This document shows, piece after piece, positions 5,102-40,510 of a stretch of DNA of 44,576 bases. The position numbers were made by a program, and so were the translations under genes. The notes beneath the pieces are model-generated. The model did no database searches. It was given only the letters and a program-made list of their open reading frames with translations, and had not been told where the DNA came from. Numbering within the stretch: the stretch's first letter is position 1; each line of letters opens with the position of its first letter. The stretch covers positions 1-44,576 of the forward strand of contig JAPUER010000054.1 in NCBI GenBank assembly GCA_027492485.1, given 5' to 3'. The DNA is from Betaproteobacteria bacterium (GTDB lineage: Bacteria; Pseudomonadota; Gammaproteobacteria; Burkholderiales; Casimicrobiaceae).

Positions 5102-5258
5102 CTTGACGCAGATTAGCGCAGATTCGACGCGGATTGCCGCAGATTTCTTTCGCCGGCGGACGGATGACCTTGCCACTCGGGCAACCTGAGAAAATCGGCG
5201 CGAATCTGCGTCGAATCTGCGTCGAATCTGCGTCGAATCTGCGCTAATCTGCGTCAAG
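5102..5258. repeat. Large inverted repeat built from 11-bp GAATCTGCGTC units
   Basis: Positions 5102-5130 and 5230-5258 are perfect 29-bp reverse complements (outer end CTTGACGCAGATTAGC). The right side continues inward as a tandem 11-bp repeat: CGAATCTGCGT at 5201, 5212 and 5223, then CGAATCTGCGC at 5234 and a diverged unit at 5245. The left side carries diverged versions of the same units as far as about 5146. The centre is about 54 bp of unrelated sequence. It fills the gap between the converging SET gene and the EamA operon and could act as a bidirectional terminator or a repeat-derived mobile relic. Nothing else is seen in 5063-5319. Confidence 0.9.
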
Positions 5259-8942: not shown

Positions 8943-8990
8943 TCAACCAGCAGCGGTCGGCGTCGCGAACCGCGAGCGTCGCCGCGGAAA

Positions 8991-9108
8991 CAACTTTTGT
9001 ACGAAACCGTTTATTTATATGGGCTCAATGCGATATTTGCTACTAAGTCGACTTTTTGACAAATCGTCATTTTTGCCCAATGCGAATGCCGCTTTTCGAT
9101 ACAAGTTG
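8991..9108. repeat. 118-bp symmetric palindromic element, copy 1
   Basis: An imperfect palindrome centred on AAGTCGACTT (centre between 9049 and 9050). The outer ends are CAACTT and AAGTTG, and GGGC/GCCC lie at exactly 26-29 bp on either side of the centre. By hand count about 32 of 59 positions pair between the arms. The same outer, middle and inner blocks recur at identical spacing at 40360-40477, with small indels at 25238-25355, and as a half copy at 35122-35183. This copy lies in the divergent region between the ABC importer operon and the DUF3592 gene, ending 38 bp before the latter. Confidence 0.88.
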
Positions 9109-9146
9109 TAGCCAATTGAGGCACTGACGATGCGTATGATTCGGCC

Positions 9147-20469: not shown

Positions 20470-20890
20470 CGGCGCCGACTCATGGCTTGCAAGCAATGCG
20501 ACCGCTTGCGCGGACAAAGCGTCGCGCGGTGGCGCGCAACAACCCGTCAAGTGGATATTTGAGTGGCAACAAGTTCATCGGCGGCGCCCACAGGCTAAGC
20601 ACATTGCGTACATCTGCCGATTCTATGGCGGTGTCGCGCCGCAGTATCCGGGCGCCGCTGGTCGCGGCGACCTGTGGGCGCGAGCTTGATCGCGCTTGTT
20701 CCCGGAGGAACGCGGTCGAGCCCGCGTCTACAGACTATTGAGATTTCCCAAATTGGCGACAAGACCCCGTTCGCCCTGAGCGAAGCGAAGGGTTTGACCA
20801 CCTCTAGCATCAAACCCTTCGCTTCGCTCAGGGCGAACGGTGGAGGGGTGTCGCGAATTATGAAAACCTCAATAAGCGACCAGCGTTGAG
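20470..20890. other. 421-bp gene-free region between hsdR and htpG
   Basis: No supported gene. It should hold the promoter of the R-M operon and the end of htpG transcription. It contains an 11-bp inverted pair GCGCCCACAGG (20584-20594) and CCTGTGGGCGC (20671-20681), and the second of these runs into a hairpin GCGCGA-GCTTGA-TCGCGC (20678-20695), which together look like a degenerate REP pair. It also carries the long perfect inverted repeat at 20767-20840. Confidence 0.7.
20767..20840. repeat. Perfect inverted repeat, 31-bp arms, 12-bp loop
   Basis: Arm 20767-20797 (begins CCGTTCGCCCTGAGCG) and arm 20810-20840 are exact reverse complements. The core GTTCGCCCTGAGCGAAGCGA is a repeat type I recall as widely dispersed in proteobacterial genomes. 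It lies 51 bp downstream of the htpG stop codon and can form a very stable hairpin in the htpG transcript, but has no T-run, so it is more likely an interspersed repeat pair than a standard terminator. Confidence 0.92.
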
Positions 20891-25176: not shown

Positions 25177-25237
25177 GACGCTATCGTAGCAAGCGCCCTT
25201 GTCCTGCCGGGCACAAACAGCAGGCGCCGTCAAGCAT

Positions 25238-25355
25238 TCAGCTTCTTGCCGTAACGGCCGTTGAATGGGAAGAATTCGCAGAAAACAATGAAAGTCGACT
25301 TCCTTTCAAAATGCGATATCTGCCCATAAAAACTGCGTATCTTGCCAAAAAGCTG
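25238..25355. repeat. 118-bp symmetric palindromic element, copy 2
   Basis: Centred on AAAGTCGACTT (centre between 25296 and 25297). The right arm has TGCCCAT and ends AAAAAGCTG at exactly the spacing of the other copies. The left arm has CAGCTTCT, ATGGG and AGAATTCGCA, matching the reverse of AGATATCGCA-like sequence on the right, with one- or two-base indels. It sits between lolA and rarA, two genes of one likely operon, and so would be transcribed. Confidence 0.82.
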
Positions 25356-25359
25356 ATGA

Positions 25360-35104: not shown

Positions 35105-35121
35105 CGCCGTCACCGGCGATA

Positions 35122-35183
35122 CAGCTTTTTGTCGAAAAGCCCAGCGCTTATGGGCTTGGCCGCGGTTTTTATCAAAAGTCGAC
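35122..35183 (-). repeat. Half copy of the symmetric palindromic element, copy 3
   Basis: Read on the minus strand, GTCGACTT is followed at the family spacing by GCCCAT and, at +52 to +59, by AAAAGCTG. The arm contains its own strong hairpin AAGCCCA-TAAGCGC-TGGGCTT. The partner arm (35184-35239) is not recognisable at the right spacing, though a GCCCA is present about 13 bp too close to the centre, so it is deleted or decayed. It lies between the converging exported-protein and LysR genes. Confidence 0.75.
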
Positions 35184-40174: not shown

Positions 40175-40510
40175 GGGGTCTCCTTGCGTGTGAAACTGTC
40201 TGTCGCGGTCCGCTACAGCGGGTTGGGTGTCGCCGCTGCGCTGCTTGCGCTGCTTGCGCAGTCGGTCGGACCGGCGCGTGGTTTGATGCGGGCAATCTAG
40301 CACAGGCGCGTGGCCGGGAGTCGGCTGCGAGTTGCCAGACGGCACTAGACGCGGAGAAACAACTTTTCTGCGAACTGCGCACGAACAATGGGCTAGGGGC
40401 ATAAAAAACGTCGAAGTCGACTTTGCGAAATTTCTCGCATTTTGCCCAGATTGGATGCGCACTTTCACGAAAAGCTGCTGCCGCCGCCGGTGCGCCAACC
40501 GATTTCCGCG
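40175..40510. other. 336-bp gene-free region between dctP and the GNAT gene
   Basis: No supported gene. It should hold the dctP promoter (read leftward). It contains a short CTGCGCTGCTTGCG-type tandem duplication near 40235-40260 and the full palindromic element at 40360-40477. An open frame running through it into dctP has no family sequence and lacks a ribosome-binding site. Confidence 0.7.
40360..40477. repeat. 118-bp symmetric palindromic element, copy 4
   Basis: Centred on AAGTCGACTT (centre between 40418 and 40419), with outer ends CAACTTTT and AAAAGCTG and GGGC/GCCC at exactly 26-29 bp each side. By hand count 34 of 59 arm positions are complementary, including TGCGCA blocks at matching places. 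The length and spacing are identical to copy 1 although the intervening bases differ widely, so structure rather than sequence is being kept. Confidence 0.9.

Follow-up and report, generated by a model that had tools for sequence, protein, structure and literature searches.

What is the palindromic element that lies between two divergent genes near 9 kb of a 44,576-nucleotide stretch of DNA (the window, meaning the whole stretch analyzed), and that recurs in other gaps between genes of the same stretch? A preliminary description had offered a non-autonomous mobile element, a structured RNA, or a nucleoid-protein or recombination-protein site, and had favored a folded structure under selection. 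The pattern of constraint supports the protein site; protein binding itself, the number and identity of the proteins, and their role are inferred. Our preferred reading, to which we give a probability of roughly 0.55, is that the copies are putative duplex-DNA docking sites for a clade-specific protein complex and are kept copy by copy by selection.

Anatomy and copy number of the element

The places first assigned to three full copies and one half copy in the window hold, and GTCGAC stands at each center. The length had been put at 118 bp; the symmetric conserved stretch extends to position +/-61, which makes it 122 bp, and the distance from GACTT to the GCCC block, given as 19 bp, is 20 bases in the window copies. 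The first copy runs from 8989 to 9110 (positions -61 to +61, center between 9049 and 9050), the second from 25236 to 25357 between the lolA gene and a rarA-like gene, and the third from 40358 to 40479 (center between 40418 and 40419); the full copies and their parts are assigned to neither strand. In the second copy the right arm is one base closer, and the left half reaches 14.7 bits only with the half-site matrix. The half element, on the plus strand at 35120-35183, extends from the outer end to GTCGAC, and its second arm is absent. The arm pairing of 54-58% noted at the outset is that of two full copies (32/59, 54%, and 34/59, 58%); it does not extend to the copy at 25238-25355, which pairs at 23/59 (39%) and in which the register of the arms is off by one base (center offset -1). 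Genes adjoining the window elements include lolA, the rarA-like ATPase, dctP, an ECF sigma factor and a LysR-type regulator, and two of eight neighbor proteins have no or merely weak family matches.

Each half has an outer part with A at -61, CA or TG at -59,-58, CTTTT at -56..-52 and AA at -45,-44, and an inner part with a block at -42..-36, GGGC at -29..-26, mostly A/T at -15..-12 and AAGTC at -5..-1. Some columns are more than 95% conserved, and several positions between the conserved ones are near random. When the matrix is compared with itself (background mean 0.10, SD 0.21, 1,855 comparisons), a dyadic 14-base module near -50, the outer A/T-tract dyad with a self-dyad similarity of 0.75 at -57/-54, recurs 40 bases inward near -10 (0.72 inverted, 0.69 direct), and a second dyad lies near -34 (0.65). 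The left arm of the outer dyad in the first copy is at 8993-9006 (-57..-44, consensus CTTTTNGCNGAAAG), with its mirror partner at 9093-9106. The left arm of the inner dyad follows at 9008-9024 (-42..-26, GGGC end at 9021-9024; mirror partner 9075-9091), then that of the second A/T-tract module at 9033-9046 (-17..-4; mirror partner 9053-9066), 40 bases from the outer one, and finally the central palindrome AAGTCGACTT at 9045-9054. The site as a whole looks composite: around a central AAGTCGACTT lie A/T-tract dyads at four places (near -50, -10, +10 and +50) and other dyads at two (near -34 and +34).

That this is a dispersed family with fixed internal spacing and many copies, as had been proposed, is supported by pattern and matrix counts. 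A pattern combining GGGC, the central AAGTCGACTT and GCCC at the spacing observed (GGGCN{20,28}AAGTCGACTTN{16,24}GCCC) has 56 forward and 52 reverse matches, mostly the same sites on both strands, in the source genome (4,123,058 bp, 83 contigs), and the reversed pattern has 0 forward and 0 reverse, so the count far exceeds what chance would give. Model R1, which describes the 62-base half by sequence alone and was built from an alignment (A1) of 43 halves, has at least 150 matches there; the 150 scored all lie at E below 1e-5. The half-site matrix (62 positions) was refined on 99 sequences amounting to 422,573 bp, namely loci picked around matches plus the window; the first model and the loci were chosen with patterns that require motif parts, and the matrix was rescanned and retrained on those same loci. 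In them 232 halves score 14 bits or more, against none in the same 422,573 bp reversed (maximum 12.8). These halves form 108 inverted pairs, with a center offset of 0 in 78, -1 in 24 and -2 in 6, and 16 singles, one of which is weak (17.6 bits) and a few of which have a poor second half visible by eye. Another 25 places came from further stretches, bringing the places read to 149; in five of the 25 a single half exceeds the threshold, and one is interrupted by an insertion of 198 bases. Because some places read (window copies 9049 and 25296, and others near C70:8,372, C75:11,920 and C72:1,747) are missing from the matches listed for R1, the true copy number is higher than that list; we estimate 150 to 200 copies in the source genome, with about 150 at least.

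Other repeats were noticed in passing. The split element (L222, G000:C79:195000-197500, about 1124-1320) is divided at its center by about 198 bases that hold a different inverted repeat, rich in G+C (CCTCCCCCGC.. type), and a similar stretch follows the half at L029. A 91-base G+C-rich repeat with inverted repeats, perhaps akin to that insert, is present in the window at 2718-2808 and 2865-2955 in two copies 96% identical. At 5102-5258 the window also has a CGCAGATT-rich unit in nested, inverted copies, with 34-nt arms that are 97% complementary, and at 20767-20840 an inverted repeat of 31 bases without mismatch around a 12-base loop.

Arm pairing and relatedness of the copies

If the arms of a copy were paired, its own right arm should match better than the right arm of another copy. 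In the 95 of 108 copies with both halves at 25 bits or more, own-arm identity is 0.534, against 0.532 when arms are shuffled between copies (SD 0.006, z 0.25), and no region lies above |z| 1.5 in this test. Two single positions of 62 have excess arm identity, -41 (0.64 vs 0.49, z 3.7) and -25 (z 2.6). RNAalifold gives 0 pairs within 43 halves. The preliminary description had itself named missing covariation among the outcomes that would speak against its claim of a folded structure under selection, and the arm test came out against it; folded RNA and a cruciform were rejected on this test together with the RNAalifold result. The palindrome arises from a half-site consensus common to both arms.

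An element acting in RNA, as a structured or transcript-end feature in the 3' region of the upstream gene that serves stability or termination, would suit a position just after stop codons, and the block at +/-34 is roughly dyadic in several species types. We nevertheless regard it as very improbable: the arms do not covary, no pairs are predicted in the 43 halves, the window has no Rfam match at gathering score, and A-or-T columns such as -14 (A 49%, T 50%) have no covarying partner across the center. At E up to 0.5, four other loci gave three sub-threshold Rfam matches, all in one locus (L006) and off the element.

The strongest dependencies between columns are those of adjacent bases. At -14,-13, AA (86) and TT (94) prevail over AT (16) and TA (9) in 205 halves, and the -59,-58 step is CA in 134 and TG in 47 of the same number. 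AA/TT and CA/TG are each the same base-pair step read on either strand, as would be expected if a protein reads the shape of duplex DNA. Weaker dependencies exist at longer distance too, several of them involving the center columns, in which a one-base shift affects 28 halves.

The main rival to the docking-site reading is an old mobile family under recognition constraint: non-autonomous elements (MITE, ERIC or REPIN-like) whose conserved positions had to be recognized by a lost or unknown transposase, whose location after genes is tolerated insertion, and whose half copies arose by decay. The palindromic form, the many copies, their place between genes and the half copies themselves fit it. 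The copies, however, are not near-identical. The best pair among 218 halves is 0.79 identical, and column-permuted sets reach 0.77 as the mean of maxima and 0.81 at most, so the copies behave as nearly independent draws from one matrix, which makes recent copying unlikely. Pairs at least 0.75 identical are 6.8e-4 of all pairs, against 8.0e-5 in column-permuted sets; this 8-fold excess counts in favor of mobility and could reflect neighbor dependencies or some shared descent.

The surroundings of the copies also bear on mobility. All-against-all blastp of the 420 proteins called in the 99 sequences found no recurrent neighbor, the most shared protein having homologues in five other loci, and a transposon with a recurrent gene was rejected accordingly. 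At E 1e-3, neither the phage nor the plasmid collection contains a match to the first copy with its margins (8981-9118). Y1_Tnp, in a count that pools RAYTs with other Y1 transposases, is present in 15 of 17 genomes of the genus regardless of elements (0 in the carrier G009, 7 in the non-carrier G011), and a REP/RAYT system was rejected because Y1_Tnp presence does not track the elements. A master sequence with close variants, the mark of REP and REPIN families, is not seen among the 218 halves with their best pair at 0.79, nor are hairpin-forming inverted units, given the absence of RNAalifold pairs and of arm covariation. Positions -62..-60 have no clear duplication signal, just an A/T preference at -61,-60; the corresponding loci of non-carriers are without the element, in sequence too diverged for a precise junction. 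The mobile-element option is thus weakened by the lack of a recurrent neighbor gene, by the near independence of the copies and by the orthologous positions kept across species, and we consider it unlikely.

Position after genes, conservation of place and species recoding

Only 1 of 123 element centers falls inside a called gene. Genes were called by a simple codon-usage script, and distances on the start side are rough. The type of gap could be assigned for 106 of the 108 full elements, with 67 lying between co-directional genes, 30 between convergent and 9 between divergent ones, whereas element-free gaps of at least 130 bp at the same loci are 42 co-directional, 9 convergent and 22 divergent, so that convergent gaps are favored over divergent ones (Fisher test, p = 8.8e-5). 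Elements lie downstream of stops, with a median of 27 bp from element edge to stop codon (IQR 6-61, n = 127) and, roughly, 102 bp to the start side (n = 85); 49 of the 67 in co-directional gaps are nearer the stop. In the single-contig relative G005, the 46 elements among the matches listed show no departure from uniform placement (KS p 0.24).

Placement of this kind recalls strong sites for gyrase, or another wrapping topoisomerase, where transcription piles up positive supercoils, and the length, the two-fold symmetry and the step-like dependencies would agree. The E. coli gyrase motif, as summarized in PMC6379681, is symmetric, spans 130 bp and has a 10.75-bp arm period. The A/T profile of 72 copies has its strongest flank period at 7.5 bp (power 10.6), with 2.2 at 10.75 bp, and the whole half has a second peak near 9.75 (6.8). 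The gyrase-site reading was rejected on the 10.75-bp arm period, and since high base specificity and species recoding are also unexpected for a conserved enzyme, we think there is little chance that it is correct.

Within the genus, 11 of 17 genomes (source included) have the pattern AGCTTTTN{44,48}AAGTCGACTT, and 6 have none. A stricter two-ended pattern found 31 stretches in a collection of 84,980 species, which may omit records very near the source genome, all of them in seven uncultured Burkholderiales or Pseudomonadota MAG assemblies. A multi-species half model (R2), applied to the best 17 candidates per genome in 300 genomes of the order, matched just the source genome and G005; it also missed the carrier G009, which makes its negatives weak. 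One genome of another family outside the genus (G027) has one core-pattern match on each strand.

The elements keep their places across species. The flank of the first window locus was matched in 13 genus genomes besides the source, and the element is there in all nine flank-matched carriers (G001, G003, G004, G005, G006, G008, G012, G013 and G015) and in none of the four flank-matched non-carriers (G002, G007, G010 and G011). At the third locus it is present in G004, G005, G006, G008, G012, G013 and G015, its distance from the flank varying among them, and the loci of carriers G001, G003 and G009 yielded none. At the second it is present in G005, G006, G008, G012 and G013, and there is none at that place in carriers G001, G003, G004, G009 and G015; synteny is broken or one-sided in several of the misses at these two loci. 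The weakest orthologous finds, L138 (27.4) and L101 (28.5), score below the single reversed-sequence match (29.9), and their assignment rests on place and inspection. From the other side, 7 of 20 G005 elements (every second of the first 40 listed) match a source element with flanks, and the remaining 13 have no syntenic source flank among the loci picked. One degenerate element-like stretch, at L158 in G014 (center near 2163; pair score 14.0, at threshold), is perhaps a decayed remnant; that genome has no strict pattern matches.

Constraint within kept places is sharply uneven. Eight orthologous pairs between the source genome and G005 are 0.775 identical at positions above 0.9 bits and 0.293 at positions below 0.35 bits; the paralog values for the same classes are 0.708 and 0.303. 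By region, in ten pairs, orthologs exceed paralogs at -42..-30 (0.57 vs 0.45, z 3.5) and at -15..-12 (0.68 vs 0.50, z 2.7), with no clear excess in other regions (next best -61..-52, z 1.6). In nine source/G005 pairs, identity is 0.64 at the fourfold sites of flanking genes and 0.62 in noncoding flanks, and source/G005 orthologous elements align at 0.43-0.72 when gaps are allowed. Since the free positions inside the element differ as much between orthologs as between paralogs, and the flanks are at 0.62-0.64, these positions have changed more than the flanks.

The -42..-26 block, which in the first copy is the inner dyad at 9008-9024, is recoded between species: it reads GCSCATT..ATGGGC in the source genome and CGACC..GGTCGTT in JAEUPL, an assembly we take as G012 because its L205 element shares coordinates with a G012 element. 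GGG occurs in 0 of 16 JAEUPL halves and in 216 of 229 source halves. By a block-type likelihood ratio, 97% of the 229 source halves are of their own type (in-sample), and all 16 JAEUPL halves, each left out in turn, are of the other type. The same ratio at the window loci gives other-type halves in G012 (6/6), G008 (6/6) and G003 (2/2), the recoded block thus being present in 12 of 12 halves of G012 and G008 together at the three loci. Own-type halves prevail in the source (5/6), G005 (4/6), G006 (5/6), G013 (6/6), G015 (3/4) and G001 (2/2) and make up 2/4 in G004; one source half, the left one at window 25296, falls into the other block type by this ratio. As read from these genomes, different species carry different blocks at the same places. 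The mobile-element rival would explain the species types as distinct waves that inserted onto older copies or took their place, and it draws support from free positions that orthologs do not have in common; occupation of the same places across species counts against it.

A putative nucleoprotein site and its relation to known systems

Several lines converge on the docking-site reading. Each copy carries sequence constraint at the level of the duplex, as expected of docking sites: there is no arm covariation, the dependencies are neighbor-base steps, and the contrast between columns is sharp, with ortholog identity at 0.775 against 0.293. To these are added the first locus kept in 9/9 carriers, the block recoded in place in 12/12 halves and the position at gene ends. 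Some observations pull the other way, namely the excess arm identity at -41 and -25, the excess of similar halves (some shared descent being possible), the misses at the second and third loci in carriers, the left source half at 25296, and the divergence of free positions above that of the flanks, which plain vertical descent does not predict.

In the mechanism we propose, homodimeric proteins would occupy the central, A/T-tract and +/-34 dyads together; that the recoded block is roughly dyadic in several species types is what a homodimer would require. The protein reading the +/-34 dyads would have changed its specificity in some lineages, and sites throughout the genome would have followed in place. 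The role would most likely be architectural, by bending or anchoring DNA or by insulating adjacent transcription units, because copies sit just after stop codons and favor convergent gaps; which function the copies would serve behind genes, whether anchoring, insulation or termination, is guesswork. In its fullest form the model would have 150-200 copies of a 122-bp composite site for a putative multi-dimer nucleoprotein complex at gene ends, a complex that changed its DNA specificity within one genus while its sites were rewritten in place, as many-site co-evolution without copying between sites. We advance this version tentatively, as less likely than not to be true.

If true, the model would reveal a genome-wide layer of chromosome organization in an uncultured Burkholderiales genus, and a natural species series for following the change in specificity of a protein with very many targets. 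The family is also a worked case of palindromic dispersed repeats that are neither folded nor, as far as sequences tell, recently copied. None of the titles and abstract openings listed from the open-access literature on bacterial repeats and gyrase sites describes it, and no paper came up there on co-evolving dispersed sites.

Strong DNA gyrase sites resemble the element in length, two-fold symmetry and gene-end placement, whereas the element has no dominant 10.75-bp period, a much stronger base specificity and species recoding. RU-1 repeat units are also known as ERIC. In the outline given in PMC2759123, the RU-1 units of enterobacteria are MITE-like intergenic repeats of about 127 bp. The element has a similar length and is likewise repeated in intergenic regions; in contrast to ERIC, compared here by description, its arms do not covary, its copies are nearly independent and its inner block is species-specific. 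REPINs are presented in PMC8049555 as hairpin-forming pairs of REPs in inverted orientation, which have a master sequence and a RAYT. With the REP, BIME and REPIN families the element has in common its high copy number, its two inverted units with some singles and its extragenic location; it differs in having no pairing, no close variants and no Y1_Tnp that tracks the copies. The matS/MatP, parS/ParB and KOPS/FtsK systems are dispersed chromosomal sites, roughly 8-16 bp long, for dedicated proteins, and the dispersed chromosomal sites we know of are several times shorter than the 122-bp element. The element resembles these systems in that its numerous chromosomal copies would be recognized in duplex form by a putative protein of their own; unlike them, it spans 122 bp with several dyads.
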